Of a stretch of DNA of 64,000 nt, positions 19,796 through 47,983 are shown piece by piece. The stretch is from contig NZ_CP025394.1 in assembly GCF_002943525.1 (NCBI RefSeq), positions 620,001 through 684,000 on the forward strand, in the 5' to 3' direction. Position 1 is the stretch's first letter. The number at the start of each line of letters is the position of its first letter. The position numbers and the translations under genes were made by a program. The DNA is from Kitasatospora sp. MMS16-BH015 (GTDB lineage Bacteria > Actinomycetota > Actinomycetes > Streptomycetales > Streptomycetaceae). Below the pieces are notes generated by a model. The model was not told the DNA's origin, made no database searches, and saw nothing but the letters and a program-made list of their open reading frames with translations.

Positions 19796-19796
19796 C

Positions 19797-29827: not shown

Positions 29828-32800
29828 ATGCCCGGCACACCCGACCCCCGCCGCTCACGGCCGCGAGCCCGTCCGCCCGAGCTCCCGGCAGCGGGTGGGG
29901 TACGCCGCTTCTGGGCCACCCTGCGCCGCCCGGCCGTCACGGCCGGGCGCCGGATCCGCACCCGCTGGCTGCTGAGCCGGGGCACCGTCCACGCCAAGCA
30001 CTGGTGGCCGCCGCTCGGCAGCGTCATCGGCACCGCCGTCACCTGGCTGTTCGCGCTGGCCCTGCTCTTCTGGTTCCTCCGCGCGCTGGCCGGGGTCTTC
30101 GGCCTCCAGTCGCTCAGCCACCCCTGGGGGCTCGACCCGGACCACAGCTGCGCCAAGGATTCCTACTCCTGCGGCGTGGCCAACAGCGTCGTGCTCCCCG
30201 TGCTCACCGCCGCCCTGGCCAGCGCCGTCTTCCTCACCCTCGCGATGCGCTCGGTGCGCCGCTACTACACCCGCCGGGCCCGCCACGAGCCCCGCGCGCT
30301 GGTGGAGTCGGCCGGCAGCTTCATGGGCCGGGTGGTCGGCCGCGACCAGCTCTGCACCGCCCTGATGGACAACCTCCGCGACGCCCGGGCCCGCCGCCCG
30401 CACGTGGTGGTCGGCGCGATCGGCACCGGCAAGACCGCGCTGGTGGTCCGTCTCACCGGCATGCTCGCGCGCAAGGGCGCCTTCCCGGTGCCGATCCGGC
30501 TGCGCGACGCCCAGCAGGAGCTGGACTTCGGCAAGCTCGCCTTCGAGCACTTCTCCCGCATCGTCGAGCCCCGCACCCACTCCCTGGCCGAGACCGACCG
30601 GATCTGGCGCCGGCTCCGCCGCCAGGACAAGATCGTCGTGCTGGCCGACGGCCTGGAGGAGGCACTCAGCGGCCCCGACCGCACGGCCGACCGCGACAAC
30701 GTCATCCGCAAGGCGATCCGCAAGGCCGGAGAGGCCCGGCTGCCCCTGGTGATCACCTCCCGGCCGCACGACCCGCTGCGCGCGATGGAGGCCGCCGTCA
30801 CCGAGCTGGAGCCGCTGAGCGAGGAATCCGCCCTCGACTACATCGCCTCCGACAGCGGCTGGCGCTCCGACCGCCGCCGCCTCGACCGGATCGTCGAGAT
30901 CGCCGGCGTCACCGACGCCCCGCTCTACCTGCAGATCGCCAAGGACCTCTACGACCACGACCTGCTGGAGAGCGTCTGGGTCAGCGACGACGAGGACGGC
31001 CACGACAGCTGGGAGCTCAAGTTCGACCTCCTGGAGGCCTGGATCCAGGCCTTGATCGACGACCACCTCCACCCCGAGCTGCCGATCGACCGCGAGGACC
31101 GCCGGCTCACCGTCGACTACATGTCCGTCCTCGCCTGCATCGGCCTGCACCAGGACAGCGCGGAGGTCTGCCTCGACCGACTGGAGCCGCCGCGGGACGC
31201 CGCCCCCGGCCCGTACCAGCCGCTTCTCACCTACCTCGAGCGCGCCCGGCGCAAGCCGCACACCCCGCTGGACGTCCGCCTCGCCGCGACCTGGGCCACC
31301 CGCCTCGGGCTGGTCGAGGAGTACGGCAGGTGCATCCGCTTCCAGCACAGCATCGTGCAGGCCTACCTGGGCTCGCGGGTGATCGGCAAGGTGCTCGTCG
31401 CCCCGCCGGGCCGGGACTCCTACTTCCCGGACGCGCTGCGCAATCCGAACCGGGAGCTGCTGCTCGCCCTCGTCCTCCACAGCCGCTCCGCCACCCGGGA
31501 GGCCCGCTGCACCTGCACCGTCACGCGCAGACCCACCTGCCCCGTCGTCCGCCTCGTCGACCTGCTCACCGGCCAGGCCCTGTCGGGACTGCTCCGGCCG
31601 TCGAGCCGCGTCTCCGCCGTCGGCCAGGGCCAGGTCTCGCACGCCAAGCTGCTGGACCTCTACGGCGCCGCGCTCGACATCGACAGCGTCGACCGGCGGC
31701 CGCGCCCCGGCCCCGTCGTGGAGGCGCTCGTCAAGGCCTGGCCGCGCCTGCGCGAACGCGACCCCCGGCGGCTCCGCGCGGCAAAGCTCTCCGTCGTGCA
31801 CCGGCTGGGCACCGCGGCCCGGCGGGCTGCCCCGGACGACGGCGGCGGGGCGTACGAGGCACTGTTCGGGATCGGCGCGGCGGAGCTCACCTACCGGGTC
31901 CGGATCGCCGTCGCCCAGGAGATCGGCCTCGGCGGCCGGACGGCGTACGAGGCGCTCCCGGAGCGCCTGCACCACTGGGAGGATCCCGCTCCGCAGCCCC
32001 CGTTCACCCTGGCCGCCGCTCCCCCGTCGCGGGATCCGATCCCGGGCGACGGCGAGCGCGGCAGGCGCAAGGAGCAGACCAGGCTCCGGGGCGCCCAGGC
32101 CCTGCGGGAGGCCGGCCGCGAGCGCGCCGAGGCCGCCGAGGAGCTGATGAGCTTCAACCACCACACCATCGCCGCCCGGGTGATCCCGCTGCTGGTCGAC
32201 TCGGCCGCGCTCACCCAGCACCAGGGCACCCCGTACCCGGACCTGGAGCACTGGGTGCAGGGCATCGTCGCCAACAACCGCCGCACCGGCCGCGGCCAGA
32301 GCCTCCGTGGCGAGCTGCGCGGGATCGAGGTGGCACTCGCGCACGGCTTCAAGCACGCCGCCAACTGCCGCTGCCGGCCAGGCGATCGGGGGCAGGCGCG
32401 GGAGTTCCTGGCCGAACAGGCCTGGGAGCTGCTGCGGTCCACCCGGTTCTGGTTCACCCGGCTCACCCTGCTGCACGCGCTCACCCTCTGGGCCCTGCCG
32501 GACGACGTGGCCCAGGAGTACCCGATGCACGGGCACGGCGCCGACCCGGCAGGGCAGGTCCGCCGCTGGCTGCAACTCCCGGACGGGGAAAGGGAACACC
32601 GCTGGTTGCGGCGGCCGGACAGCTGGCCGTGCGGGCCCTGCAGACCAGGCGGCCGGAGCGGTTCATCTGGCTGGACGAGGCGGTGGTGGCCTCCCAGGTC
32701 GGCTCCGCGCCCAGCCTGCTCGCCGAGCCGCGCCAGCACAACCTCTGGATCGCCCCCTCCACCGGTTGGAGCACCCTGGACCCGGCGGCCCAGCAGCTGC

Positions 32801-33261
32801 TCGCCGACGTCACCCTGCTCATCATGCTCACCGAACGGGCCGACCGCCCGAGGGAGATGTACCGTCGGCTGGAGCGCGACCAGGCCATCCCGGCCGAGCT
32901 GCCGCCCTGCCTGACCAGGCACCGCACCGCACTGGACCCGACCCGGCGGATCACCCGCCCCGGCACGGTGCCGCCAGGCACCAACTGCGCACCCCAGTAC
33001 CCCTTCGAGTTCTGTCCCTGCCCGCCGAAGATGCCCGACCTGCGGGTCGAGCTCGGTGAGGTGTTCTGCATGAACCAGCGCGGCCTGCTCGGCCGTTGGC
33101 GCCCCTGGGCCTGGCTGCACCTGCGGCTGCGCCGCAAGGCGCGCTGGCAGCGCCGCACTCCGGTCGCCGAACTGCGCCGGTTCTGGGACCAGATGGGCCG
33201 CCGCGCCCGTGACCTGCCCCCCGAGGACGTGGCGCTGCCCCGGCACCTGCCCGACCCCTGA
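29828..33261 (+). CDS. Membrane STAND/NACHT-like ATPase, frameshifted
   Basis: From ATG 29828 one frame runs to 32914 (1028 codons), but after His924 (near 32599) its sequence becomes unnatural while the frame ending at 33261 becomes natural (GQLAVRALQTRRPERFIWLD; QYPFEFCPCPPKMPDLRVEL). Restoring one C in CACCGC at 32597-32602 joins both into about 1144 residues. Seen: two hydrophobic segments (about 66-91, 119-141), a Walker A GAIGTGKT (196-203, Lys202), Walker B-like KIVVLADGLEE, LVITSRPHD as a sensor motif, and a long helical C-terminal half. Probably a membrane-anchored STAND signalling ATPase; function unknown. GGGAGGGAAGG precedes the start. Either a sequencing error or a true mutation. 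Confidence 0.72.
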
Positions 33262-33337: not shown

Positions 33338-34111
33338 GTGACCACGCTTCGTACCGAACTCGACGATCTGGGCTCGCCCGTCCGGCTGGGCGCCGTCCGC
33401 CGGGTGGTGTCGCTGGTGCCCTCGCTCACCGAGGCGATCGCCGCCACCGAGCCCGAACTGCTGGTCGGCGCCACCGACTGGTGCTCGCACCCGGCCGAGC
33501 TCGCGGTGGCCCGGATCGGCGGCACCAAGAACCCCGACCCGGCCCGGATCGCCGCGCTGGCCCCGGATCTGGTGCTGGCCAACCAGGAGGAGAACCGGGC
33601 AGTGGACCTGGCCGCGCTGCGGGCGGCCGGCCTGCCGGTCTGGGTCACCGACGTGCGCTCGCTGCCGCAGGCGATCCGCTCGCTGGAGCGCCTGCTCACC
33701 ACCGCCTGCCGGCTCACCCGGCCCGACTGGCTCGAGGCCGCCGCCCAGGCCTGGCAGTTCACCAGTGCGGCGGCGCCGATCCGGGCCGTGGCCCCGATCT
33801 GGCGGCGGCCCTGGATGGTGCTCGGCCGGGACACCTTCGCGGGCGACCTGCTGGCCCGGCTCGGCGTGGAGCTGATCCACGCCGACCACGCCGAGCGCTA
33901 CCCCGCCATCCCGCTGCCCGAACTCCTCGCCGCCCGGCCCGAACTGGTGGTGCTGCCGGACGAGCCGTACCGCTTCACCGGCGAGGACGGCCCGGAGTCC
34001 TTCCCCGAGCTGCCCTGCGCCCTGGTGAGCGGCCGCCACCTCACCTGGTACGGGCCCTCCCTGGCCGAGGCACCCGCCGTGCTGGCCGGCCAACTGGCCG
34101 TGGCGGGCTGA
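33338..34111 (+). CDS. Helical-backbone metal receptor (BtuF-like) without signal peptide
   Basis: 257 residues. Seen: RVVSLVPSLTEAI at the N-terminus, GATDWCSHP, IGGTKNPDPARIAALAPDLV, and EPYRFT with TWYGPSL near the C-terminus, the pattern of TroA/BtuF-type class III binding proteins for cobalamin or siderophores. No signal peptide is present, so it is cytosolic, as are many actinobacterial members. GTG at 33338 (or nine bases earlier). Its ligand and link to the peptide cluster downstream are unknown. Confidence 0.82.
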   Translation: MTTLRTELDDLGSPVRLGAVRRVVSLVPSLTEAIAATEPELLVGATDWCSHPAELAVARIGGTKNPDPARIAALAPDLVLANQEENRAVDLAALRAAGLPVWVTDVRSLPQAIRSLERLLTTACRLTRPDWLEAAAQAWQFTSAAAPIRAVAPIWRRPWMVLGRDTFAGDLLARLGVELIHADHAERYPAIPLPELLAARPELVVLPDEPYRFTGEDGPESFPELPCALVSGRHLTWYGPSLAEAPAVLAGQLAVAG

Positions 34112-34229
34112 CCGGAGCGATACGGTCCGCTCCACCGGTTCGGCAACAGCGGGTGCCTGTCAGCATGTTGCAAATTCATGACGGCGTCACCCCCTGTCCA
34201 AGTGGATCTCCCACTGCCAACCTGAAGCG

Positions 34230-35453
34230 GTGAGCCGCACCGACGACCACCCCGCGACCCGAGCCGCCGCCACCCGTCGCGATCTGGCCGTCTTCCTGAC
34301 CGCCAAGACCGTCTCGGACATCGGTTACGCGCTCGATTTCATCTGCCTCTCCGTCTTCGTCTGGGAGCGCAGCCACTCCGCCCTGGCCACCGGCCTGTTG
34401 AGCACCGCCCTGTACGCGGGGGCGATCGCCGGCGGCCGGCTCGGGCACCGCTACGGCGACCGCTGGGACCGGCGGCAGGTGATGATCGGCGCCGACCTGG
34501 TCCGGGCCGGGATGCTCGGGCTGCTGGCCCTGCTGCCGGACGGCGCCCAGAACTGGTGGCTGTACGCGGCGGTGGCGCTGGTCGGGGCGGGCCGGTCGGT
34601 CTTCGAGGCCACCCTCTCGGCCGCCACCCCGGTGCTGGCCGGGGAGCGCACCCAGACGGTCAACAGCGTGCTGGCCGGGCTCAAGGGCGTGGCCTTCGTG
34701 ATCGGCATGGGCCTGGCCACCGTGCTGGTGCCGCTGATCGGATACCGGGGCGTTTTCGCGCTGGACGCGGGCAGTTACGTGCTCTCCGCCCTCGTGCTCA
34801 CCGCCCTGCGGCTGCGGATGCGCGAGGTGGACGGCCCGGGCCGGGCCGGCCGGCAGGCCGCCGGGGCCTGGCCGCTGCTGGTCGGCGCCGGGCTTGCCGT
34901 GCTGGTGGTACTGCGCGGTCTGGACGCCTTCGGCTCCTCCTCCCAGCACGTCGGACTGCCCATCCTGGGCGGCCAGTTGCGACCGGAGTCGCCCACCGAG
35001 GTCTCCGGCGCGGTCTGGAGCTCCTGGGCCGCCGGGCTGCTGCTCGCCGGCTTCGTGCTCCGTCCGCTGGCCAAGCGGCTGATCGAGCGCAATCCTCCGG
35101 TGGTGTTCTGCCTGGCCACCATGGTGATGTCGGCCGGGTTCATCGGCGTGTTCTGGCTGGACGGCTGGTGGCCGAGGCTGGCCGCCGCCGTGCTGGCCGG
35201 CCTCGGCGACGCGCTCAGCGAGATCACCTACAAGCAGGCCATGCAGCGCCTCCCGGACGACCGCCGCGGCCGGGCCTTCGGCTTCGGCCAGATCGTGGTC
35301 AACGCCGGCTTCATGGCCGGCCTGCTCGCCACCAGTCTCGTGCTGCAGCCGAATTGGCTCCCCGAGTGGGTCCTGCTGCTGCACGGCGTCCCGCTCCTGG
35401 TGGCCGCCTGGGCCACCCTCCGCTCCCGCACCGCCGGACCGACTCCCGATTAG
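34230..35453 (+). CDS. MFS exporter, first gene of the peptide cluster
   Basis: 407 residues, GTG start. Seen: twelve hydrophobic segments, motif GRLGHRYGDRWDRRQ after the second (MFS motif A form), and an acidic/basic loop in the middle. It resembles small-molecule or peptide efflux proteins of biosynthetic clusters. Seventeen bases separate it from the PLP-enzyme gene. Probably exports the product of the twin peptides; inferred from context. Confidence 0.82.
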   Translation: MSRTDDHPATRAAATRRDLAVFLTAKTVSDIGYALDFICLSVFVWERSHSALATGLLSTALYAGAIAGGRLGHRYGDRWDRRQVMIGADLVRAGMLGLLALLPDGAQNWWLYAAVALVGAGRSVFEATLSAATPVLAGERTQTVNSVLAGLKGVAFVIGMGLATVLVPLIGYRGVFALDAGSYVLSALVLTALRLRMREVDGPGRAGRQAAGAWPLLVGAGLAVLVVLRGLDAFGSSSQHVGLPILGGQLRPESPTEVSGAVWSSWAAGLLLAGFVLRPLAKRLIERNPPVVFCLATMVMSAGFIGVFWLDGWWPRLAAAVLAGLGDALSEITYKQAMQRLPDDRRGRAFGFGQIVVNAGFMAGLLATSLVLQPNWLPEWVLLLHGVPLLVAAWATLRSRTAGPTPD

Positions 35454-35470
35454 CCCTGCTGGAGGGCCGC

Positions 35471-36595
35471 ATGACCGACCGCGCCTACCTCGACCACGCC
35501 GGCTTCGGCCGGCTGCGGCCGCCCGCGCTGAGCGCGATGCGGACCGCACTGGAGGAGGTGATGCCCTACGGCAGCGTCGAGTTGGGCCAGGTCTTCTGGG
35601 CCCGCAACGCGGCCCGCCGCACCATGGCCGGGCTGCTGAACCGCTCCCCGGCGGAGATCGCCTTCGTCCCGAACACCTCCACCGGCGTGCACCTGGTGGC
35701 CGACGGCCTGGACTGGCGGCCGGGCGACCGGGTGGTGCTCTTCGACCGGGACTTCCCCGCCAACGTCCGGCCCTGGCTCCGACTCGCCCGCCAGGGCGTG
35801 GAGTTCGACTGGGTGCCGATGCGCGAGGGCGGCCACCGGCTGGAGGACCTGGCGGCCGTGCTCACGCCGGCTACCCGCCTGATCGCCGTCAGCCACGTCA
35901 ACTTCGCCACCGGCTTCCGGATCGACCTGGCGGCCGTCTGCGCGCTGGCCGCCGAGGTCGGCGCCCTGGTCAGCGTGGACGCCGTGCAGAGCCTCGGGGC
36001 CCTCCCGCTCGACCTCACCGCGACCCCGGTCGACTTCCTCGCGGCCGGCGCGCACAAGTGGCTCGGCGGCCCCACCGGCACCGGCGTCTTCTACTGCCGG
36101 GCCGACCGCCTGGAGCTGCTGCGCTCCACCCCGACCGGCTGGTACGGCTTCGAGGGCGCGGCCGAACTCACCAAGGGCCCGGGCCCGCTCAGCTACCAGC
36201 TGCCCGAACGGCCGGCCGCGGCCCGGGTCGAGGGCGGCATGTACGACCTGGTGGGCATGGTCGGCCTGGCCGCCACCCTGGCCGAGCTGGCCGAGCTCGG
36301 CCTCGACACGGTGGCGCCCCGGGTGCTCGCCCACGCCCAGCGGCTCCGCCAGGGCCTGGCGGAGCTCGGCCTCACCGCGGCCACCCCCTCCACCGGCCCC
36401 GACTGCCCCTCGAATTCCGGGATCGTGAGCTTCTCGTGTCCAGAAGTGGACAGTGCGGAGCTGGTGGCCGCGCTGGCACACTCCGGCGTACAGGTATCCG
36501 TTCCGGCCGGCCTGGTGCGGGTCTCCCCGCATTATTGGACGACCGACGAGGAAATAGATCTCTTCCTTCTGACGATGAAGGAAATCAAGCCTTGA
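35471..36595 (+). CDS. Class-V aminotransferase-fold PLP enzyme
   Basis: 374 residues; ATG with GGAGGG just upstream. Seen: AYLDHAGFG at the N-terminus, SVDAVQSLGALPLDL with the PLP-binding Asp, and AAGAHKWLGGPTGTG with Schiff-base Lys196. It lacks the Cys loop of cysteine desulfurases (SufS/IscS). It is closer to isopenicillin-N-epimerase/EgtE-like members, which epimerise, cleave C-S bonds or transaminate. Lying directly before two Cys-containing peptides, it is the best candidate for their modification, but no peptide-acting member is known to me. Confidence 0.85.
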   Translation: MTDRAYLDHAGFGRLRPPALSAMRTALEEVMPYGSVELGQVFWARNAARRTMAGLLNRSPAEIAFVPNTSTGVHLVADGLDWRPGDRVVLFDRDFPANVRPWLRLARQGVEFDWVPMREGGHRLEDLAAVLTPATRLIAVSHVNFATGFRIDLAAVCALAAEVGALVSVDAVQSLGALPLDLTATPVDFLAAGAHKWLGGPTGTGVFYCRADRLELLRSTPTGWYGFEGAAELTKGPGPLSYQLPERPAAARVEGGMYDLVGMVGLAATLAELAELGLDTVAPRVLAHAQRLRQGLAELGLTAATPSTGPDCPSNSGIVSFSCPEVDSAELVAALAHSGVQVSVPAGLVRVSPHYWTTDEEIDLFLLTMKEIKP

Positions 36596-36681
36596 CGGCC
36601 CTGACGGGTTGTCATACGTTCCCCTCACCGCGCTGCCGCCGACAATCGGCGGCCGACGAATTCACCGAAGGGAGTTGCGAA

Positions 36682-36777
36682 ATGGCGTACGAGTCCTGGG
36701 AGATGCTGACCGACGAGGTCGAGGTCACCACGGGTTCGGCCGACTGCTGGACCTGCCTGGTCGACGACGCGGCCTGA
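36682..36777 (+). CDS. Precursor peptide 1 with CWTC motif
   Basis: 31 residues: begins MAYESWEMLTDEVEV, ends with DCWTC (21-25) and LVDDAA. The ribosome site AAGGGAG lies eight bases before the ATG. It is 26/31 identical to the next peptide, and differences are at positions 8, 10, 15, 19 and 27 only, outside the CWTC. Short acidic leader plus conserved Cys/Trp core is the form of a RiPP precursor. Too short for automatic gene finders and easily missed. Confidence 0.82.
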   Translation: MAYESWEMLTDEVEVTTGSADCWTCLVDDAA

Positions 36778-36819
36778 TTCGCTCCGATTGTTCGCGCTTT
36801 CATCGAAAGGAGTCACACC

Positions 36820-36915
36820 ATGGCTTACGAGTCCTGGGAATCCCTCGCCGACGAGGTCGAGATCACGACCGGTGCGGCCGACTGTTGGACCTGTCTGATG
36901 GATGACGCGGCCTGA
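36820..36915 (+). CDS. Precursor peptide 2 with CWTC motif
   Basis: 31 residues: begins MAYESWESLADEVEI and ends with DCWTC (21-25) and LMDDAA. Its own ribosome site AAAGGAG lies before the ATG, 42 bases after peptide 1. Substitutions against peptide 1 are conservative (Val/Ile, Ser/Ala, Thr/Ala, Val/Met) or exposed. Two independent ATG-to-stop frames with ribosome sites and the same protein sequence, but different codons, show selection on the peptide. Confidence 0.85.
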   Translation: MAYESWESLADEVEITTGAADCWTCLMDDAA

Positions 36916-36995
36916 TCCGCGGCACCGCAGATGCGCCCGGCGGCTCTCCGGCCGCCGGGCGTTTCGCCAATCTCCGAGACGATGGGAATGACGCC

Positions 36996-39518
36996 GTGAG
37001 CCGCTGGGAGTTCAGTCACGGAAAGGTCGGGGTGAATTCCCCGAGCTGGTTGACCTTCGAGGTGCACCGGCCGTACTTCGACGGCGCCGCCTCGCCGCTG
37101 ACGGTGATCCAGGCCCGCGCCGCGGTGCTCGCCGCCCGCCGGTTCGAGACCCGCTCACCGCAGGCCCTGCGGTTCGGCATGACGATGCCCGCCAGCTACC
37201 GGCGGTTGCTCGTCGAGGAGTCGCGGCTGCACGACTACCGGGCCACCACCCCGCTGGACCTCCCCGAGCACCTGGCCTCCCGCGACTGGCGGCGGATGAC
37301 CGAGGCGTACCGGCACCACGCCGAGCTGGACGAGACCGAGCGCACCGGCCTGGCCCACTGGCTGGTGGCGGCCTGCCTGCTGCCCGCCGTCCTGGAGCTG
37401 CTGCCCGCCGACCTGACCGCCGAGCGCTGCCAGCAGGCCGTCCCGGCCGGCCTCCAAGCGGCCCGCGCCGTCGCGCTGTTCGGCCTGGAGGGCCTCTCCG
37501 AGCGCACCATGGCCGCGTACCGCCCGCTGGTCGAGCACCCGGCGCCCACCCTGACCCATGTGCACGCGGTGGCCGGCTGGGGCTACCTGCTGGCCCGGCA
37601 CGGCGGTGACGACTCGGCCGTGCCGGAGCACCTCGACCGGGCCGCCGGGCTGCTCGCCGAGCTGGCCGACCGGCTCTCGCCCTTCGAACTCACCGTGGTC
37701 CGGGCCAGGTTGGCACTGCGCGAGGCGATGCTCGCCGAGCGCCGCCAGGACCACGCCGGGGGTGCCGAACGGCTGGCAGCCGCCTGGCAGGCCGTCTCGG
37801 CGCTCGAAGCCCCGGACGGCGACGAGGAGTTGGTACTCCTGGAGACCAGGCGGCGGCTGATCGACCGGCGGCTGGAGCTGGCGGTGCGCCTGGGCGACAC
37901 CGCCACCGAACGGACCGCCCTGGCCGAGGGGGTGGCGCTCGACCCGACCTGCGTCAAGCTGCGGATGCAGTCCGCCCAGGCCCACCAGCGGGCCGGTGAG
38001 CCCGAACTCGCCCTTCGCGACTACCTGCACGCCGCCCGGCTCGGCCCCTACGGCACCGGCTTCGCCCTGCTCCGCGCGGCCGACTGCGCCGAGCAGACCG
38101 GCGAGCGGGAGTTCGCCCGGGTGCTGACCGAGCGGGCCTTCCGCGCGGCCCCGCGCGCCTCGGCCACCCGGGACGGGCTGATCGCCCGCTGCCTGGCCGA
38201 GGGCGACGAGCCGCTGGCCGAGCTGGTCCGGCTGGCCGCCGAGCGCGATCCGGAGCGCCCGTACCTCAACAACTGGCACTACCGGATGCACGCCGCCTAC
38301 TTCAACCTCGGCGAATCCCACTCCCCGGGCCTGTACGCCAAGTTGCCCACCCTCGCCTTCGAGCACGCGCAGCGCGGCGAGTTCCCGGCCGTGAACTGGC
38401 AGCGCCTGATGCCGCCGGCCTTCCGCACCAACCTGATCCGCGAATCCGGCCTGACCGAATTCGCCGTGGACCACCCCGCCGAGCTCCCAGCCCGGCTGCG
38501 CACCCCGGCCTGGGACGAACTCTGTCGCTGGGTCGAGGAGTTCGAGGGCTACGACACCGAGCGCAAGCACCAGGTGGCGGTGGTGCTCTTCCGGCTCGGC
38601 TTCGCCAAGCTGGTGCTGCGGCTGCTGCCCTTCCGGCCCGCCACCGAGCTGACCACCACCGCCGAACTGCGGCTGCACCACTGGCTGGACGTGGTCCGCT
38701 GGGTCACCTCGGTGGGGCAGGGCACGGTGGTGCACCCCGCCAACTCGGCCGCGATCGCGGCGCATCCGGCCTGCTCCACCCACCTGCGGTTCGTCATCGC
38801 GGTGTTCTCGGTGATCTTCGAGGCGCGCGAGACCCGGTCGCTGGAGACCGCACTGGCCTGGCGGGAGACGGGCGAGAAGGCGATGGCCGAGCTGCTGGCC
38901 GATCCGGGCTACTCGGATTTCGAGAAGGCCATGTTGGAGAGCCGGTTCTACCGTAGCGTCAGCTACGTGCCCTTCCTCCAGCAGGACGCCGAGCGGCTCG
39001 CCGCCGACATGGACCGGGCCGAGGAGCTGGCCCGCGCGGTGCCCGCCGTCGGCGAGTACCAGGAGTTCCTGCGCCGGGAGAACCTGCGGGCCTGCGTGGA
39101 GAGCCGGTCCAAGGAGTTCTACGCCTTCGGCGCGAACGAGCGGGCGCACCGGCTGGTCGCCGAGGCGCTGGCGATCGACCCGTACGAACCGAAGACGCAC
39201 ATCGAGGTCGCGGAGGGCCTGATGAAGGAAGGCAACCCCGAGGAGGCGGCCCGCAGTTACCTGCGGACGGCCCGGCTCGGCCCGGTCTCCACGGCCTTCG
39301 GCTACGCGGCGGCCGGCGACTGCTTCGCCCGCGCCGGGCGCGAGTTGCTGGCCGAGGACTGCTTCTTCCAGGCCCTGCGGATCGACCCGTACGCCATCTC
39401 GGCCGCCCGGGGCTGGGCCGGCGTCGGCGCGGCGGGCGGCATGCCCGAGCTCGCCACCGCCTACCTGGCCGACCTGGAGGCCTGGGGAGCGGCCCGCCGG
39501 GCCGCGCGCACCGCATGA
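36996..39518 (+). CDS. Large TPR-repeat protein of the peptide cluster
   Basis: 840 residues, GTG start, soluble. N-terminal region (1-130) without recognised fold, then helical repeats. TPR-like units are clear in two places: about 300-370 (ALAEGVALDPTCVKLRMQSA; ALRDYLHAARLGP) and 705-800 (RLVAEALAIDPYEPKTHIEV; AARSYLRTARLGPVSTAFGY). There is no radical-SAM, YcaO or other known RiPP enzyme motif. It may bind the peptide leader as a scaffold or hold an unknown enzyme domain. Coupled to the aminopeptidase gene by ATGA. Confidence 0.78.
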   Translation: MSRWEFSHGKVGVNSPSWLTFEVHRPYFDGAASPLTVIQARAAVLAARRFETRSPQALRFGMTMPASYRRLLVEESRLHDYRATTPLDLPEHLASRDWRRMTEAYRHHAELDETERTGLAHWLVAACLLPAVLELLPADLTAERCQQAVPAGLQAARAVALFGLEGLSERTMAAYRPLVEHPAPTLTHVHAVAGWGYLLARHGGDDSAVPEHLDRAAGLLAELADRLSPFELTVVRARLALREAMLAERRQDHAGGAERLAAAWQAVSALEAPDGDEELVLLETRRRLIDRRLELAVRLGDTATERTALAEGVALDPTCVKLRMQSAQAHQRAGEPELALRDYLHAARLGPYGTGFALLRAADCAEQTGEREFARVLTERAFRAAPRASATRDGLIARCLAEGDEPLAELVRLAAERDPERPYLNNWHYRMHAAYFNLGESHSPGLYAKLPTLAFEHAQRGEFPAVNWQRLMPPAFRTNLIRESGLTEFAVDHPAELPARLRTPAWDELCRWVEEFEGYDTERKHQVAVVLFRLGFAKLVLRLLPFRPATELTTTAELRLHHWLDVVRWVTSVGQGTVVHPANSAAIAAHPACSTHLRFVIAVFSVIFEARETRSLETALAWRETGEKAMAELLADPGYSDFEKAMLESRFYRSVSYVPFLQQDAERLAADMDRAEELARAVPAVGEYQEFLRRENLRACVESRSKEFYAFGANERAHRLVAEALAIDPYEPKTHIEVAEGLMKEGNPEEAARSYLRTARLGPVSTAFGYAAAGDCFARAGRELLAEDCFFQALRIDPYAISAARGWAGVGAAGGMPELATAYLADLEAWGAARRAARTA

Positions 39519-41065
39519 GCGCCCAGTGGCGGCTCGCCCCGCAGCAGCCCGCCGACGTGGACGCCGTGGTGGTGCCGGTCTTCGCCGGTGAGCTGCCCGC
39601 CGACCTGACCGCCGCCTTCCTCGCCGGCACCGGCTTCACCGGCGCCCTGGGCCAGGTGCTCCACCTCCCCGGCGAGCCGGTCCGGGTGCTCTGGGGCTGC
39701 GGCCCCCGCGCCGCCCTCGACCCCACCACCACCCGCACCGCCGCCGCCCACCTGGCCCGCGCCGTCCGCGACCACCGCCGCCTGGCCCTGCACGCCCCGG
39801 GCCCGGCCCTGCGCGAACTCGCCGAGGGCTACCTGCTCGGCGCCTACCGCTACGCCGGGCACTTCTCCACCGAGGAGGCCGTCCGCCGCACCGCCCCGGA
39901 CCAGGTGATCGACCTGCTCCCGGCCGAGGCCGCCACCGAATCCGCCCACCACGCCGGGCCCACCACCGAATCCGCCCACCACGCCGGGCCCACCGCCGAA
40001 GCCGCCCACCACACCGGGTCCACCGCCGAAGCCGCCCCCGAAACCGCTCGCCACAGCGGGCCCGCCACCGAGGCGGCCCTCGCAGCCGGCCTCCGGGTCG
40101 GCGCGGCCGTCGCCCTCGCCCGGGACCTGGTCAACGAGCCCGGGGCCGAGCTGACTCCCCCGCTCTTCGCCGAGCGCGCGCTCAAGCTCGCGGCCGAGAC
40201 CGGCCTGGAGTGCGAGGTCTGGGACGCCCAGCGGATCGCCCACGAGCGGCTCGGCGGGCTGCTCGGGGTGAGCCGGGGCTCGCTGGTGCCGCCCCGGCTG
40301 GTCCGGCTGCGGTACCGCCCCGCCGGCGGGTCCGAGCGGCGGATCGCGCTGGTCGGCAAGGGCGTCACCTACGACGCGGGCGGCCTGGCGCTCAAGCCGA
40401 ACGCCGAACTCGCCACCATGAAGGCCGACATGGCGGGTGCGGCGGCGGTGCTGGCCGCGATGTCCGTGCTGCCGGCGCTGAGCTGCCCGGTCGCGGTGGA
40501 CGGCTGGCTGCCGCTCACCGAGAACATGCCGAACGCGGACCCGATCCGGGTCGGCGACGTGCTCACCATGCGCAGCGGCACCACGGTGGAGGTCCGGCAC
40601 GCCGACGCCGAGGGCCGGTTGATCATGGCGGACGCGCTGACCCTGGCCGCCGAGACCCGGCCGGACGCGATCCTCGACCTGGCCACCCTGACCGACGCCG
40701 CCGCGGTGGCCCTGGGCCGCCGGATCGCGGCGGTGATGGCCACCGACGAGGAGCTGCTGGCCCGGCTGCTGGCGGCCTCGGCCCGGGCGGGCGAGCGCTG
40801 CTGGCCGCTCCCGCTGCCACCCGACTACGGCGGGCAGCTGCACTCCCGGGTGGCCGACCTGGTCAACTACACCCTGGGCGTGCGGCACGGCACGGCGATG
40901 CTGGCCGGGCTCTTCCTCCAGCACTTCGTCCCCCCGGGCACCCCGTGGGCCCACCTGGACATCCAGGGCACGGCGCTCTCCGACGCGGACGACCCCGAGT
41001 GGGGTCTGGGCGGGACGGGGTTCGGCGTCCGCACCCTGGTGGAGCTGCTGACCGCCGGTGGCTGA
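39515..41065 (+). CDS. M17 leucyl-aminopeptidase-type peptidase
   Basis: 516 residues. The ATG overlaps the stop of the TPR gene. Active-site set is complete: Lys282 and Asp287 in VGKGVTYDAGG, Lys294 in LKP, Asp in MKADMAGA, and Asp364, Glu366, Arg368 in ADAEGR. Expected to be a two-zinc cytosolic aminopeptidase that trims N-terminal residues. The linker between the N-terminal and catalytic domains carries tandem 10-residue repeats (see repeat). In this cluster it probably removes the leader of the CWTC peptides; a housekeeping pepA role is less likely given the coupling. Confidence 0.87.
   Translation: MSAQWRLAPQQPADVDAVVVPVFAGELPADLTAAFLAGTGFTGALGQVLHLPGEPVRVLWGCGPRAALDPTTTRTAAAHLARAVRDHRRLALHAPGPALRELAEGYLLGAYRYAGHFSTEEAVRRTAPDQVIDLLPAEAATESAHHAGPTTESAHHAGPTAEAAHHTGSTAEAAPETARHSGPATEAALAAGLRVGAAVALARDLVNEPGAELTPPLFAERALKLAAETGLECEVWDAQRIAHERLGGLLGVSRGSLVPPRLVRLRYRPAGGSERRIALVGKGVTYDAGGLALKPNAELATMKADMAGAAAVLAAMSVLPALSCPVAVDGWLPLTENMPNADPIRVGDVLTMRSGTTVEVRHADAEGRLIMADALTLAAETRPDAILDLATLTDAAAVALGRRIAAVMATDEELLARLLAASARAGERCWPLPLPPDYGGQLHSRVADLVNYTLGVRHGTAMLAGLFLQHFVPPGTPWAHLDIQGTALSDADDPEWGLGGTGFGVRTLVELLTAGG
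39938..40066 (+). repeat. 30-base tandem repeat in the M17 peptidase gene
   Basis: Three clear 30-base units (39938-39967, 39968-39997, 39998-40027), encoding ESAHHAGPTT, ESAHHAGPTA and EAAHHTGSTA, and a diverged fourth. Units 1 and 2 differ by one base, showing recent duplication. Confidence 0.85.
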
Positions 41066-41126
41066 GCGCTTGCTCAGCCCGTGTCGCCCATCCGGGTGAG
41101 CCGTCCTTCGCCTACCATCCCAAGAC

Positions 41127-41795
41127 ATGAGCAGGTACGGGTGGGTGGCGGCGGTCGTGGTGCTGATGGTGGGTCTGGCGGGCTGCCGGGCGGCGGACCC
41201 TTCCTCCGCCGCCGCCACTCCGCTCCCCACCACCACGAAGTCGGCCGCGCCCTCCCCGAAGCCGGCCTCGCCCTCCGCCAAGGCCACCGGGCCCACCACG
41301 GGCACCGGCTACGACCCGGCGGCCTTCGCCCCGCAGGTCCGCGCCTGGGCGGCGAAGACGGACATCAGCCCCCGGCTGCTGCTCGCGGTGCTCTACAACG
41401 AGGCGTACAAGCCGCACGATCCGGACCTGGAACGGGCCTGGCAGCGCCTCAAGCCGGATTCGGCCTTCGGGATCGCCAACATGCACCGGGCCGCCTTCGA
41501 CGAGACCAAGGCCGAGCACTTCCCGAACCGGAACTGGGAGGAGCTGCCGGACGACCCGAACCTCGCGATCCAGGCCGCCGCCTGGTACCTCGCCGGGCTG
41601 GCCGACCAGCTGCCCGAGCAGCGAAGTTCTTCCTACACGAAGGAAGAACTCCTCGCCCTCGGCTACAACACCGGCCCCGGCAACATGCTCGCCTTCGCCC
41701 GCGGCGCGCACCCGGGGGCGCAGGCGCAGTCGTACCTGGACCATCTGCATGCCAACCTGCCGAAGGCCGAGCAGGCCCTCGCGAAGCAGGACTGA
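41127..41795 (+). CDS. Lipoprotein with lytic-transglycosylase-like fold
   Basis: 222 residues. Lipobox LAGC with Cys20, then a Pro/Ser/Thr-rich linker to about 60, then an SLT/lysozyme-like domain (LLLAVLYNEAYKPHD with Glu91 in the position of the catalytic Glu, FGIANMH, LGYNTGPGNMLAFA). It is anchored to the outer face of the membrane and expected to cut peptidoglycan. A -10-like TACCAT eight bases before the ATG suggests a short or absent leader. Neighbour of the rpf gene, a second cell-wall gene. Confidence 0.83.
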   Translation: MSRYGWVAAVVVLMVGLAGCRAADPSSAAATPLPTTTKSAAPSPKPASPSAKATGPTTGTGYDPAAFAPQVRAWAAKTDISPRLLLAVLYNEAYKPHDPDLERAWQRLKPDSAFGIANMHRAAFDETKAEHFPNRNWEELPDDPNLAIQAAAWYLAGLADQLPEQRSSSYTKEELLALGYNTGPGNMLAFARGAHPGAQAQSYLDHLHANLPKAEQALAKQD

Positions 41796-43069: not shown

Positions 43070-45718
43070 CTAGTACCCCTCGGGCGGCGCGGGCTGCGCC
43101 GCCCAGATCACCTTGCCGCTCTCGGTGTACCTGGTGCCCCAGCGCTCCGAGCACTGGGCCACCAGGAAGAGCCCGCGGCCGCCCTCGTCGGTGGCCGCGG
43201 CGTACCGCAGGTGCGGCGAGGTGCCGCTGGTGTCGGAGACCTCGCAGACCAGGCCCCGGTCGTACAGCAGGCGGACCCGGATCGGTTCGGCGCCGTAGCG
43301 GATCGCGTTGGTGACCAGCTCGCTGAGAATCAGCTCGGTGGTGAAGACCAGCTCGTCCAGGCCCCAACTCTCCAGCTGCGCCGTGACGGTGGCCCGCACC
43401 CGGGAGACCGCCGCGGCCTCGGCCGGCACCGCGAACTCGACCACGTGCTCGCGCGGCAGCGCCTTGGTCCGGGCCACCAGCAGGGCCACGTCGTCGGCCG
43501 AACCGTGCGGCAGCATCGCCGCCAGCACGGCCTCGCAGGTCTCCTCCGGCTCCGGGCCGGCCTGCCGCAGTGCCTCGGCCAGCAGGTCGAGGCCGGTGTC
43601 GATGTCGCGGCTGCGGTCCTCCACCAGGCCGTCGGTGTAGAGCACCAGCCGGCTGCCCGGCTCCAGCCTGAACTCCCCGGCGGAGTACGGCATTCCGCCG
43701 ACCCCGAGCGGCGGGCCGGCCGGCAGCTCGGGGTAGCTGACCGAGCCGTCGGGGGCCACCACGGCGGGCGGCGGGTGGCCGGCCCGGGCCACCGAGCAGG
43801 TCAGCGAGACCGGGTCGTAGATCGCGTAGAGGCAGCTGGCCCCGGTCACCTCCGCGACCGGTTCGCCCTCCCGCTCCTGGTCGATCATGGCCACCAACTC
43901 GTCCAGGTGGCCGAGCAGTTCGTCCGGCGGCAGGTCGAGGGTGGCGAAGTTGTGCACGGCGGTGCGCAGCCGGCCCATGGTGGCGGCGGCGTGCAGGCCA
44001 TGGCCGACCACGTCGCCGACCACCAGGGCGACCCGGGTGCCGGGCAGCGGGATCACGTCGAACCAGTCGCCGCCGACGCCGGCCTGGGCGGGCAGGTAGC
44101 GGTAGGCGGCGTCCACCGCGCTCTGGCTGGGCAGGGCCCCGGGCAGCAGGCTGCGCTGGAGGGCGACGGCCATCACGTGCTCGCGGCTGTAGCGGCGGGC
44201 GTTGTCGATGCTGACGGCGGCCCGGGCGGTGAGCTCCTCGGCGAGCGAGAGGTCGTCCAGGTCGAAGGGTTCGGGCCGCTGCGAGCGCCAGAACTTGACC
44301 AGGCCCAGCTGCACGCCCCGGGCCAGGATCGGCACCCGGACCACCGAGTGGATGCCGTGTTCGAGCACCCGCCGGGCCCGGGGCGGATCCTGGGTCTGCC
44401 AGGCGGTGGCCGAGGCGAGATCGCGCTCCAGGCCGGCCTGCCCGGTGCCCAGGTTCCAGGCCTGCGGGGTGGCCGGGTGGACGGTGATCCGCTCGCCGAC
44501 GGGGTAGAGCGGCATCTCCTCGGCGATGCCGCTCTTGGCGACCCGCCGCATCGGGGTGTCCGGGCCGGGCCGGGGCTCCTCGCCGCGCAGCACCGGTTCG
44601 GCCAGGTCCACGGTGACGTGGTCGGCGAAGGCGGGCACGGCCACCTCGGCCAGCTCCTCGGCCGTCCGGGTGACGTCCAGGGTGGTGCCGATGGCCAGGC
44701 TGGCCTCGTAGAGCAGGGTGAGGCGGCGGCGGGCGGCCTCGGCCTCGGCCGTGAGCACGTGCAGTTCGGTCGCGTCGCGCAGGGTGGCCACGGTGCCGGG
44801 CGGGCCGCCGGCCCGGTCGGTGGGGCGGGTGCTGACCACCAGCCGCCGGGCCCCGGCCGAGAGCACCTCGTCGCTCACCGCCCGCCCGGAGGCGAGCAGC
44901 TCGGCGGCCGGCCCGTCCAGGCCGAGCTCGGCCACCGGTCTCCCCTCGGCGTCGGGCGGCAGGTCGAGCAGCCGCCGGGCCTCGTCGTTGGCGAGCAGCA
45001 GGGTGGCGTCGGCGCGCAGGATCACCACGCCCTCCCGGACGGCGTGCAGCACGGCGTCGTGGTGCTCGTACATCCGGGTCATCTCGGCCGGGCCGAGCCC
45101 GTGGGTCTGCCGCAGCAGCCGGCGGCTGGCCAGCGCGGTGCCGACGGTGGCCAGCCCGAGCGCGACGGCCGCCGCGCCGAGCAGCAGCGGCAGCTGGCGC
45201 TGGACCACCCCGCTGACCTTGCTGATGGTGATCCCGGCCGAGACGGCGCCGACCACCGTGCCGTTCGCGTCGTGCACGGGCACCACGGCCTGCACCAGGG
45301 GGCCGATCGTGCCGTTGATCTGCTCGGTGACCACCTGCCCCTGCAGGGCGGGCTGGTAGGTGCCGACGAACTTCTTGCCGATCCGGTCGACCAGCGGGTG
45401 GGTGTACCGGATGCCGTCGGTGCCCAGCACCACCACGAAGTCGACCCCGGAGTCCTTCCGGGCCGCCTCGGCGCTCGGCTGGAGCAGGGCCGTCGGGTCC
45501 GGGGAGCGCAGCGCGGCGGCGATGCCGGGCGAGTCGGCGAAGGTCTGGGCGACGGCGACCGACCGGTTGCGGGCCTCCGTGGTGCTGTCCCGCCGGGACT
45601 GGATCACCAGCGCGAGCACGGCGGCGAGCACCAGCAGCAGCACCACGACGACCTGGAGGGCGAACACCTGCGCGGCGACGCTGCGGGAGGCGGACGGCCG
45701 TGCCGTCGTACGGGCCAT
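43070..45718 (-). CDS. SpoIIE-type phosphatase with sensor, PAS, GAF and HATPase domains
   Basis: 882 residues from ATG 45718 (the frame opens earlier but without family sequence). Order seen: TM1 (about 20-40), extracytoplasmic CACHE-like sensor (about 45-170), TM2 (about 178-200), PAS (AVREGVVILRADATLLLAND), GAF (about 335-510), PP2C/SpoIIE phosphatase (GVGGDWFDVIPLP, VGDVVGHG, YTDGLVEDR) and a C-terminal anti-sigma kinase-like HATPase (LSELVTNAIRYGA, GRGLFLVAQC). It would dephosphorylate an anti-anti-sigma factor in response to an external signal. No partner gene is adjacent. Confidence 0.9.
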   Translation of the reverse strand: MARTTARPSASRSVAAQVFALQVVVVLLLVLAAVLALVIQSRRDSTTEARNRSVAVAQTFADSPGIAAALRSPDPTALLQPSAEAARKDSGVDFVVVLGTDGIRYTHPLVDRIGKKFVGTYQPALQGQVVTEQINGTIGPLVQAVVPVHDANGTVVGAVSAGITISKVSGVVQRQLPLLLGAAAVALGLATVGTALASRRLLRQTHGLGPAEMTRMYEHHDAVLHAVREGVVILRADATLLLANDEARRLLDLPPDAEGRPVAELGLDGPAAELLASGRAVSDEVLSAGARRLVVSTRPTDRAGGPPGTVATLRDATELHVLTAEAEAARRRLTLLYEASLAIGTTLDVTRTAEELAEVAVPAFADHVTVDLAEPVLRGEEPRPGPDTPMRRVAKSGIAEEMPLYPVGERITVHPATPQAWNLGTGQAGLERDLASATAWQTQDPPRARRVLEHGIHSVVRVPILARGVQLGLVKFWRSQRPEPFDLDDLSLAEELTARAAVSIDNARRYSREHVMAVALQRSLLPGALPSQSAVDAAYRYLPAQAGVGGDWFDVIPLPGTRVALVVGDVVGHGLHAAATMGRLRTAVHNFATLDLPPDELLGHLDELVAMIDQEREGEPVAEVTGASCLYAIYDPVSLTCSVARAGHPPPAVVAPDGSVSYPELPAGPPLGVGGMPYSAGEFRLEPGSRLVLYTDGLVEDRSRDIDTGLDLLAEALRQAGPEPEETCEAVLAAMLPHGSADDVALLVARTKALPREHVVEFAVPAEAAAVSRVRATVTAQLESWGLDELVFTTELILSELVTNAIRYGAEPIRVRLLYDRGLVCEVSDTSGTSPHLRYAAATDEGGRGLFLVAQCSERWGTRYTESGKVIWAAQPAPPEGY

Positions 45719-45816
45719 GCGCCCATCGTCCCCCGGGTGACCCCGAGGTGGCCAGTGGGTGTATAAGAAGCCTCCCCGATCTTCCCGGGATGCCTCCCCG
45801 ATCCCCGTGATCACTC

Positions 45817-45846
45817 TTGACATAACTCAACAGAAACAAATAATTC
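45817..45846 (+). promoter_or_regulatory. Promoter of the GH27 gene
   Basis: TTGACA (45817-45822), 18-base spacer, TAATTC (45841-45846), in an unusually AT-rich patch about 70 bases before the start. Confidence 0.65.
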
Positions 45847-45916: not shown

Positions 45917-47983
45917 ATGGCTCAGTCCCTGCGTCGCGTCACCGTGGCCGCGGCCGGCTCACTGCTGCTCGCGCTCGCCCCGCTCACCGCCACCACCGCC
46001 CACGCGGCCACCCCGCCGCTGGCCAACGGCAAGGCCCTCACCCCGCCGATGGGCTGGAACTCCTGGAACAGCCTCGGCACCGGCGTCACCCAGCAGCAGG
46101 TCAAGGACACCATCGACTACATGGTGGCCAACGGCCTGGTCGCGGCCGGCTACGACACCGTGACCATCGACGACGGCTGGTCGCTCGGCCACCGCTCCGG
46201 CCAGACCACCGACCTGGTCAAGAACTCCTACGGCGCGATGCAGCTCTACGACGCGGGCGGCCACCCGGTCGGCGGCCTGGACGGCACCGGCAACGACCCC
46301 ACCACCGGCCACCTGGTGCCCGACCCGCGCAACTTCCCGAACCAGCTGGTCAACGGCCAGCCGGTGAACGGCATCCAGTACCTGAGCTGGTACGCGCACG
46401 GCAAGGGCATGAAGTTCGGCCTGTACGGGACCGACACCTACACCACCTGCCAGGGCCACCCGGGCAGCCTGGGCCACGAGGCCACCGACGCGGACGACTT
46501 CGTCAGCTGGGGCGTCGACTTCGTGAAGTACGACGACTGCCCGTACGGCGGCACCATCACCGGCCCGGACGGGCACGACTACGGCACCCAGGGCGAGGGG
46601 CGGGAGCTCACCCGCTCGATGTACGCCCGGGTGCAGGACTTCCAGCGCCAGCTGGACGCCGCCTCGGCCCGCCAGGGCAAGGGCAAGGTGACCATGAGCG
46701 TCTCCGCCCAGCCCGTGCACACCGGCGTCCCGTACCTGCTGGCCGCCGACGACCCGGCCCGCTCCGACTCGGTGGTCCAGGCCGCCGGCACCGCCCGGTA
46801 CAACGCCCCCGGCTACGCGCCCACCGGCGTCTGGTGCGGCCAGGTGGCCAACCTCTGCCGGATCGGCGGCGACCGGGGCAGCGACCTCGGCGGCGTGCTC
46901 TACGACGGCCAGCTGGGCACCGCCCTCCAGTACCCGGGCAACGTGCGCCCCGGCAGCTGGAACGACCTCGACATGGCCTTCGCCGGCTGGCAGGACCCGT
47001 ACGGCCAGTGGGGCGTCACCGACACCTGCACCTGCCACCAGCCGTACACCGACACCGAGTCGGCCAGCGAGCTCTCCATCCTCTCGATGCTGGCCGCCCC
47101 GCTGATCTCCGGCGCCGACCTGCGCACCGCCGCCGCCTCCCAGCACACCTCCGGCGGCGTCACCTGGTCCACCGGCCTGACCTCCTCGGCGCTCGCGCTC
47201 TACAAGAACGCCGACATGATCGCCATCGACCAGGACGGCCTCGGCAAGCCGGCCACCCTGGTCGGCGGCAACCCGAGCGGCTCGGCCCCGCTGGTGCTCA
47301 AGCGCACCCTGGCGGGCGGCGACACCGCCGTCCTGCTGCTCAACCAGAGCGCCACCGCCACCCAGACCGTCGCCACCTCGCTCCAGGCCCTCGGCCTGAC
47401 CGGCTCCTACAGCGCCAAGGAGCTCTGGACTAAGGCCACCAGCACCGTCACCGGCCCGCTGAGCGCCACCCTGGCCCCGCACGCCGCCGCGCTCTACCGG
47501 CTGAGCACCGCCGCGAGCTCCGTCACCCCCGCGATCGTCGGTGACAACGCCTTCCACGGCCTCACCAACGGCGGCAGCGGCGGCCTGGCCCTGGAGGTGG
47601 CCGGCACCTGCAGCGCCCCGGCCGGCGGCGTGGCCGACCTCAACACCTGGGACGCCACCCACACCTCCGAGCAGTGGCAGTTCGCCCGCAACGCCGACGG
47701 CTCGGTCCGGATCTACGACCGCTGCTACACCGGCACCCAGATCGCCGGCACCCTGACCGCCCCGACCTCGGCCGGCGCCCCCGTCACGGTGCAGAACGCC
47801 TTCGACCCCGCCAACGCCTACCAGAAGTGGACCGTCACCCAGTCCACCAGCACCGGCGCCATCACCCTCACCAACCAGGCCACCGGCCTGGTGCTCGACA
47901 CCCCGTCCACCGCGCGCACCACCACCGTGACCACCAACCCGGCCACCGGCGCGGCCACCCAGGGCTGGTCCACACTCAACTGA
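45917..47983 (+). CDS. Secreted GH27 alpha-galactosidase with ricin-type lectin
   Basis: 688 residues. Signal peptide 1 to about 30 (TTAHA), GH27 barrel (about 40-410: PPMGWNSWN, TIDDGW, nucleophile Asp206 in VKYDDC, acid/base Asp in WNDLDM near 350), a beta-sandwich to about 535, and a C-terminal ricin-B-like CBM13 (QKWTVTQSTST and two related units). Expected to remove alpha-galactosyl residues from plant galactomannan or oligosaccharides outside the cell. Single gene with its own promoter and terminator. alpha-N-acetylgalactosaminidase or arabinopyranosidase activity are alternatives in this family. Confidence 0.9.
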   Translation: MAQSLRRVTVAAAGSLLLALAPLTATTAHAATPPLANGKALTPPMGWNSWNSLGTGVTQQQVKDTIDYMVANGLVAAGYDTVTIDDGWSLGHRSGQTTDLVKNSYGAMQLYDAGGHPVGGLDGTGNDPTTGHLVPDPRNFPNQLVNGQPVNGIQYLSWYAHGKGMKFGLYGTDTYTTCQGHPGSLGHEATDADDFVSWGVDFVKYDDCPYGGTITGPDGHDYGTQGEGRELTRSMYARVQDFQRQLDAASARQGKGKVTMSVSAQPVHTGVPYLLAADDPARSDSVVQAAGTARYNAPGYAPTGVWCGQVANLCRIGGDRGSDLGGVLYDGQLGTALQYPGNVRPGSWNDLDMAFAGWQDPYGQWGVTDTCTCHQPYTDTESASELSILSMLAAPLISGADLRTAAASQHTSGGVTWSTGLTSSALALYKNADMIAIDQDGLGKPATLVGGNPSGSAPLVLKRTLAGGDTAVLLLNQSATATQTVATSLQALGLTGSYSAKELWTKATSTVTGPLSATLAPHAAALYRLSTAASSVTPAIVGDNAFHGLTNGGSGGLALEVAGTCSAPAGGVADLNTWDATHTSEQWQFARNADGSVRIYDRCYTGTQIAGTLTAPTSAGAPVTVQNAFDPANAYQKWTVTQSTSTGAITLTNQATGLVLDTPSTARTTTVTTNPATGAATQGWSTLN

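Follow-up and report, generated by a model that had tools for sequence, protein, structure and literature searches.

Tetratricopeptide repeat (TPR) proteins accompany several described pathways for ribosomally synthesized and post-translationally modified peptides (RiPPs). For example, pearlin and ammosamide biosynthesis is described as combining an acidic ribosomal peptide that carries a key Trp with a TPR protein, release by peptidases and a transporter, and the ammosamide pathway contains AmmC2 as a further TPR protein (PMC9850906, PMC12424672). Similarly, biphenomycin-type clusters (BipC/PbsE) are reported to include a TPR-annotated arginase, a major facilitator superfamily (MFS) exporter, a peptidase and a ribosomal precursor (PMC12707348, PMC12257519), and TPR proteins or domains are mentioned for a lasso peptide cluster (PMC12670498), RiPP clusters of Bacteroidales (PMC10352776) and an E. 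coli YcaO (PMC13063428). An aminotransferase, which is a pyridoxal phosphate (PLP) enzyme, takes part in the RiPP pathway of the daptides (PMC11002830). Here, these systems are compared with a five-gene cassette of Kitasatospora sp. MMS16-BH015 (contig NZ_CP025394.1), which lies in a 64,000-nucleotide stretch (positions 620,001 to 684,000; hereafter the window) of a genome consisting of one contig of 8.96 Mb. The cassette is compact, conserved and of RiPP type, has no known class-defining enzyme and possibly represents a new RiPP class.

The cassette differs from each of these systems. Unlike the pearlin and ammosamide pathways, it has no peptide aminoacyl-tRNA ligase (PEARL, a short LanB), contains a class-V PLP enzyme and encodes a peptide in which the Trp is internal, with flanking Cys. 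It contains no arginase, multinuclear non-heme iron-dependent oxidative enzyme (MNIO) or B12-dependent radical S-adenosylmethionine (SAM) enzyme, in contrast to biphenomycin-type clusters, and neither the radical SAM enzyme nor the FxS motif of FxSxx/FxsB systems. The IPR005814 aminotransferase, iron alcohol dehydrogenase and DUF-RRE fusion (RRE, RiPP recognition element) that daptides use on a C-terminal Thr (PMC11002830) are likewise not found among the cassette genes. In the literature searched (mostly open-access, without bioRxiv), no description of a RiPP system with TPR, M17 and class-V PLP proteins was found, nor were the letters DCWTC, and the DCWVC present in two papers was judged unrelated from title and abstract.

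All cassette genes are on the + strand of the window. The gene for a 407-residue MFS exporter (34230..35453; PF07690, 97.8 bits versus a cut-off of 33.4) is followed by one for a 374-residue class-V PLP-dependent enzyme (35471..36595; PF00266, 157 bits) and by two 31-codon putative precursor genes, of which the first (36682..36777, MAYESWEMLTDEVEVTTGSADCWTCLVDDAA) is the more diverged copy and the second (36820..36915, MAYESWESLADEVEITTGAADCWTCLMDDAA) is near the family consensus. Downstream are the gene for an 840-residue TPR protein with two tandem domains of ~420 residues each (36996..39518), as indicated by internal duplication, AlphaFold2 models and TPR fold matches, and that for a 516-residue member of the M17 leucyl aminopeptidase family (39515..41065; PF00883, 360 bits), the start of which overlaps the end of the TPR gene by 4 bases. 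A previous reading of the letters alone (the sequence-only reading) had proposed that twin 31-codon genes, flanked on one strand by MFS and PLP genes on one side and TPR and M17 genes on the other, form a RiPP-like cluster in which no known class-defining enzyme is present. When the DNA was re-read, the two copies (26/31 identical, 5 differences) were found at these positions, each with its own GGGAG/GGAG ribosome site, and Pfam matches agree with the proposed flanking genes, although single-repeat TPR models match below their cut-offs. In addition, Pfam and NCBIfam scans of the cassette returned MFS, class-V PLP, TPR and M17 families and no enzyme that defines a known RiPP class (YcaO, LanB, radical SAM, P450, MNIO or ATP-grasp). 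Pfam gave no match to a PqqD-like RRE in the cassette, a negative that is limited by the divergence of RREs and by the lack of a search with dedicated RRE models.

Comparative genomics shows that these five genes constitute the conserved unit. By using the double-domain TPR protein as a query and removing duplicates, 21 loci were collected (the window plus 20 genomes), consisting of the window, 14 loci from a pattern-based scan and those of genomes G123, G207, G161, G079, G074 and G979. The scan covered a collection of 84,980 species non-exhaustively, so that its 36 pattern matches and 14 confirmed loci (four Kitasatospora, four Streptomyces-labelled, four Actinokineospora, one Actinocrispum and one Allorhizocola) mean at least 14 loci. 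The TPR protein had a match in 17 of 394 genomes of the family, 14 of which (the window included) are clear relatives of 61-100% identity and three of which are distant (26-31%), and in one of 396 genomes of a phylum sample, namely its own; a class sample of 394 genomes added one further double-domain relative (G979). Scattered soil actinobacteria share the cassette.

A gene for a DCW[T/V]C peptide is directly upstream of the TPR gene in 21/21 loci, which bears out the proposal that the small open reading frames (ORFs) would be conserved beside the TPR, M17 and PLP genes of relatives. The order MFS-PLP-peptide-TPR-M17 is complete in 19 of the 21, the other two (L043, L052) being cut by contig ends; the M17 and MFS genes are present at every locus where the contig allows, and the MFS gene is the first gene of the cassette wherever the locus is long enough. 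ORFs of ≥100 residues were grouped into families across 20 neighbourhoods (thresholds E 1e-20, 30% identity and half length). Outside the core genes and their antisense ORFs, each family occurs in at most 2 of these 20; the ORF caller sometimes picked antisense frames inside core genes. Three of the outside families are each shared by two loci of different genera (L033/L041, L044/L046 and L029/L033), and three more are common to the close pair L023/L039. Pairwise distances across 11 loci are correlated between the TPR and PLP proteins (r=0.945), the TPR and M17 proteins (0.917) and the PLP and M17 proteins (0.864), with 0/999 permutations as high; these values, uncorrected for shared ancestry, are counted as support for co-inheritance of the cassette proteins. 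At two loci the reading frames are interrupted, those of the TPR and PLP genes in L033 (8917-11359 and 7478-8573) and that of the PLP gene in L047 (2314-3231), which is from the same genome as L030, and these interruptions could be sequencing errors or decay.

Neither copy of the peptide matches a Pfam or NCBIfam family at E up to 1, and a search of the source genome at E up to 10 found these two places only; the tandem pair was seen in the window alone, a single copy being found in each of the 20 other loci. An alignment of 20 distinct DNA sequences (L086, which was found later, was left out) has an invariant E-x-W-E-x-L-x-D-E-V-E segment, followed by one invariant T and then by A-D-C-W-x-C, in which x is T in 15 sequences and V in 5. 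The tail varies in length and sequence among loci, the peptides are 29-33 residues long and acidic (net charge −7 to −9), and no hydrophobic stretch resembling a secretion signal was seen by eye. Codons vary synonymously at many positions where the amino acids are conserved, and across 26 aligned codons of the 20 sequences the proportions of nonsynonymous and synonymous differences (pN and pS) are 0.106 and 0.379, a pN/pS of 0.28, while the corrected values for the window pair are 0.125 and 0.717. The sequence-only reading had named an absence of coding constraint (Ka/Ks near 1) as a refuting outcome; instead, the peptide gene is under purifying selection. With a homologous gene at the same place in every locus as well, the ORF is more than a product of chance.

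Expression signals around the peptide gene are also conserved. In the window, a promoter-like region (36592..36681, + strand; TTGACG at 36592, a spacer of 17 and TACGTT) overlaps the stop codon of the PLP gene and is followed by the GGGAG ribosome site of peptide gene 1. In 19/21 loci a TTGAC box precedes the peptide start by at most 170 bp, and in 12/21 it is accompanied by a −10-like hexamer, versus 0.21 expected from shuffles; a stricter consensus promoter scan of the window found no promoter. Between the peptide and TPR genes, a G+C-rich hairpin with a 13 bp stem (36933..36962, + strand) has counterparts with stems of 10-19 bp in 21/21 loci when loops of up to 30 are allowed. Stems of this length were reached by at most 2 of 200 mononucleotide shuffles in 19/21 loci and by 16 of 200 for each of L049 and L052; with loops of up to 8, the count below threshold, again by mononucleotide shuffles, was 14/21. 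Since the loci are related, neither the TTGAC nor the hairpin counts are independent. Dinucleotide shuffles for the four loci that were folded gave z values of −1.79 (window), −1.64 (L039), −5.37 (L044) and −5.49 (L048). A terminator scan of the window does not list the hairpin and an Rfam search of 34000-41500 returned no match; the element is a probable attenuator. In established RiPP operons, a promoter of its own and a leaky terminator allow the precursor to be made in excess. The conservation of both elements here therefore suggests that the peptide may be made in excess over the downstream proteins, through its own promoter and partial termination at the hairpin.

The TPR protein is modelled as two tandem TPR superhelices, a fold of the kind that binds peptides. 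When C-terminal halves were combined with distant relatives into a profile, this retrieved the N-terminal half at E 3e-25, and AlphaFold2 predicts an all-helical solenoid with a mean predicted local distance difference test score of 83.5 for the whole protein and 84.0 for the N-terminal half alone, the low-confidence parts being residues 1-28 and, in the whole model, also 61-77. TPR superhelices are the best fold matches, among them LGN, which aligns both within the whole model, in its C-terminal half (Z 20.6, root mean square deviation (rmsd) 3.9, 288 aligned residues), and with the model of the N-terminal half (Z 20.3, rmsd 3.7, 288 aligned). Such matches show a type of fold and not a function, because helical repeats match each other easily. 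A hidden enzyme fold was considered but gained no support from the whole and N-terminal half models, for which the matches listed are TPR or similar helical-repeat structures, although such a list cannot exclude one and barely covers the low-confidence residues. The kinesin light chain TPR domain with a bound tryptophan-acidic peptide is another fold match (Z 15.4, rmsd 3.9, 219 aligned), and the E-[S/T]-W-E segment of the leader may resemble the motif bound there.

The distant, single-domain relatives of this protein provide a second line of evidence. Six contexts, those of the strongest matches, were examined, leaving aside 13 weaker matches (E 1e-8 to 1e-5) and a plasmid match (H2), and three of the six couple a TPR relative to a RiPP-type enzyme with an adjoining small ORF. 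In L034 (8165-10682), an ORF ending in GSFNSFIEPGL, an FxSF-type motif, is followed with overlapping ends by a gene for the radical SAM protein FxsB (TIGR04269, 452 bits, cut-off 370) and by a TPR gene whose product is 29% identical to the C-terminal half, an arrangement that links the TPR domain to FxSxx/FxsB systems. In L087 (6012-11385), a 28-residue ORF, a divergent YcaO (PF02624, 96 bits, cut-off 25.7), a TPR relative (profile E 1.4e-39) and an MFS gene share one strand, and the locus looks like an undescribed YcaO RiPP cluster. The relative in L088 (7258-15334), which was found by profile only (E 4.7e-16), is preceded by a 51-residue ORF and an arginase-family gene (compare the TPR-annotated arginase of biphenomycin-type clusters) and is followed by genes for a multidrug and toxic compound extrusion (MATE) protein, a pyrroloquinoline quinone (PQQ) propeller, an M3 peptidase-like protein and an O-methyltransferase; it also looks like a RiPP cluster. 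The small ORFs beside these relatives are candidate precursors. The FxsB, YcaO and arginase-family contexts therefore support a RiPP role for the TPR domain, and what is new here is the recurrence of a single TPR domain family across RiPP classes, given that TPR proteins in RiPP clusters have been reported before. From the fold, the adjacency to the peptide gene and these contexts, the TPR protein probably binds the precursor, and this role is likelier than catalysis because the predicted all-helical double superhelix has no recognizable catalytic fold.

The class-V PLP enzyme is the sole recognizable catalyst of the cassette besides the peptidase. Of the two sources of chemistry named in the sequence-only reading, the PLP enzyme and the TPR protein, the former is favoured here. 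The best matches of its profile among solved structures are two cysteine desulfurases and an L-cyst(e)ine C-S lyase (E 5e-41 to 4e-36); similarity to the lyase C-DES (1elq, E 3.8e-36) is full-length and that to cysteine desulfurases is equally strong, so the resemblance to C-DES is not exclusive. The enzyme aligns with C-DES and SufS over most of its length, including the PLP Lys and the carboxylate Arg, and Lys196, an N-T-S motif, Asp170, Gln173 and Arg350 are present in 14/14 sequences. It differs from SufS, which has a catalytic Cys, at the position that we take to align with that residue (Val342 in the window), where 13 of the 14 sequences have Val and one has Leu. Cys desulfuration by a SufS-like route, which the sequence-only reading had entertained, is thus unsupported because the desulfurase Cys is missing. 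In these features the enzyme is closer to a cyst(e)ine C-S lyase than to SufS, and a C-S lyase or related amino-acid enzyme is the most likely assignment because the Arg is kept and the Cys is absent. The genome encodes three weaker paralogues at E up to 1e-10. In the four plasmid records examined out of 44, relatives are found beside RidA, beside an Asp/Glu racemase and hydantoinase genes, beside a membrane dipeptidase and a dihydropyrimidinase, and in one uninformative context; this suggests free-amino-acid chemistry but is not diagnostic.

In the M17 protein, K282, D287, K294, D305, D364, E366 and R368, which we presume to be active-site positions by comparison with E. coli PepA, are invariant in 12 aligned sequences. 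Because of this invariance, and because the genome has a second M17 gene whose product is 46% identical, the cassette copy is probably dedicated to the cassette. The MFS protein is the presumed exporter of the product.

Together, these features led to a model, held with moderate confidence, in which the genes form a self-contained RiPP-type biosynthetic cassette that probably turns its peptide into an exported natural product without the usual peptide-modifying enzymes. In the precursor, E-[S/T]-W-E-x-L-x-D-E-V-E would serve as the leader and A-D-C-W-[T/V]-C as the core, with a tail that is short and variable. The double TPR superhelix would bind the leader and present the C-terminal core, the PLP enzyme would perform the defining chemistry, the M17 peptidase would remove the leader from the N-terminus up to the modified core, and the MFS protein would export the product. 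With low certainty, the PLP enzyme may work as a C-S lyase or related enzyme whose substrate is either cyst(e)ine that is joined to the CxxC pair or supplies it, or a residue that the peptide has released. If this model is correct, a class-V PLP enzyme is the only recognizable catalyst besides the peptidase in a RiPP class, and mining rules built on known RiPP enzymes are expected to miss such cassettes. The TPR domain, as a candidate leader-binding module found beside FxsB, YcaO and arginase-family enzymes, is a possible search hook for orphan RiPP clusters, and the cassette is unusually easy to test, because it has only five genes and a substrate of 31 residues and offers a clear read-out by mass.

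Several observations weigh against this model. The cassette contains no endopeptidase, and the TPR protein, with a net charge of −15, is acidic like the leader, which disfavours simple charge-based binding between them. An internal Cys would be an abnormal substrate for the PLP enzyme, which keeps the carboxylate Arg, because PLP needs a free amine and, in the class-V fold, Arg binds the α-carboxylate of the substrate; a free amino acid could serve instead, as could one linked by its side chain, for example in a mixed disulfide, or a residue that the aminopeptidase has set free. Among the contexts of distant TPR relatives, L036 (7135-10887) has a 34-residue acidic ORF and a relative of 24% identity but shows only an M3 peptidase, L037 (25%) has a 28-residue ORF and no recognizable RiPP enzyme, and L035 and L038 (25%) lack both a clear precursor and a recognizable RiPP enzyme. 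Finally, in the window the hairpin is not followed by a long T run and only moderately beats its dinucleotide shuffles.

One specific chemistry would accommodate the substrate problem. The PLP enzyme may act in the manner of C-DES on a free cysteine that is disulfide-linked to the CWTC pair, leaving a persulfide or a tri- or polysulfide bridge; this route fits the enzyme because the linked cysteine offers both a free amine and a carboxylate and no catalytic Cys is needed. The cassette would then represent a new RiPP class in which sulfur is added to a Trp-containing CxxC peptide on the TPR platform, followed by M17 trimming, with the encoded residues unrearranged. This proposal, which brings with it a second claim, that the TPR domain is a precursor-binding module of unrelated RiPP classes and an alternative to the RRE, is tentative and rather unlikely.

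Another doubtful explanation borrows from the pearlins. Here the TPR protein would modify Trp or Cys on a carrier peptide, the M17 enzyme would digest the carrier, the PLP enzyme would finish the amino acid and the MFS protein would export it. There is precedent in BhaC1, which is described as a TPR protein without an obvious flavin domain, yet an FMN enzyme that trihydroxylates the C-terminal Trp of an acidic scaffold (PMC9850906). The CWTC peptide is likewise acidic with an invariant Trp, M17 family members are exopeptidases, and the carboxylate Arg of the PLP enzyme suits a free amino acid as substrate. However, the Trp of the CWTC peptide is internal rather than C-terminal, no PEARL (LanB-type) enzyme was detected in the cassette by Pfam or NCBIfam, and hhalign comparison of the TPR protein with presumed AmmC1 orthologues gave probabilities of 1.0% and 0.1%. 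Homology to BhaC1/AmmC1 was not supported by this comparison, there being no significant similarity to ORFs of 594-680 residues beside AmmA-like peptides, from which the comparison set of four presumed orthologues was picked by position. AmmA-like acidic peptides are encoded in 5/394 family genomes (L097-L101) and in 0 plasmid records. The ORFs of 594-680 residues adjoin them in L098-L101, with more large ORFs beyond in 3/4, and the AmmA-like loci are possibly ammosamide-type pearlin clusters.

A further reading takes the peptide to be a small protein that stays unmodified, such as a CxxC partner of the PLP enzyme carrying metal or persulfide, with no natural product arising from the cassette; it is also improbable, and somewhat more so. 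It would explain why the leader and the CxxC are alike near-invariant, which is unusual for precursors of diversifying antibiotics, and it agrees with the placement of the PLP enzyme in the cysteine desulfurase/C-S lyase superfamily. A carrier protein, however, has no need of a variable tail, an exporter or a second-copy aminopeptidase, and some TPR relatives have RiPP contexts.

It is very unlikely that the TPR protein and peptide form a signalling pair of the Rap-Phr or NprR type, with the TPR protein as the receptor of an exported and processed peptide. Such a pair would be consistent with the neighbouring TPR and peptide genes and with the accompanying peptidase and exporter, and structures of Rap and NprR are among the fold matches, but generic TPR folds outscore RapI (Z 18.1, rmsd 4.9, 286 aligned, against the values for LGN given above). 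In addition, the peptide has no signal-like hydrophobic stretch by eye, no DNA-binding domain was found on the TPR protein by Pfam or NCBIfam, some TPR-domain relatives sit with FxsB, YcaO and arginase-family enzymes, and the PLP enzyme has no obvious place in a receptor pair. Least probable is a translated attenuator, an ORF that regulates the TPR and M17 genes through the downstream hairpin, since despite the presence of the hairpin in every locus the amino acids are kept while codons vary synonymously, no single-codon run is present, Rfam gave no match and the window has two copies of the ORF, each with a ribosome site.

The window also contains genes outside the cassette. Three long mechanical ORFs (646, 436 and 394 residues) at 13184-16431 (+) and 18686-19870 (+), downstream of a gene for a helix-turn-helix protein at 10779-12362, have no Pfam match at E 1e-5. 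Upstream of the cassette is a gene for a 1028-residue NACHT/STAND NTPase (29828-32914, +), with a gene for a metallo-β-lactamase-fold protein nearby (28100-29062, −). On the other side, a gene for a SpoIIE phosphatase with sCache, GAF and kinase-like ATPase domains (43070-45823, −) adjoins one for an α-galactosidase with a ricin-type lectin domain (45917-47983, +).

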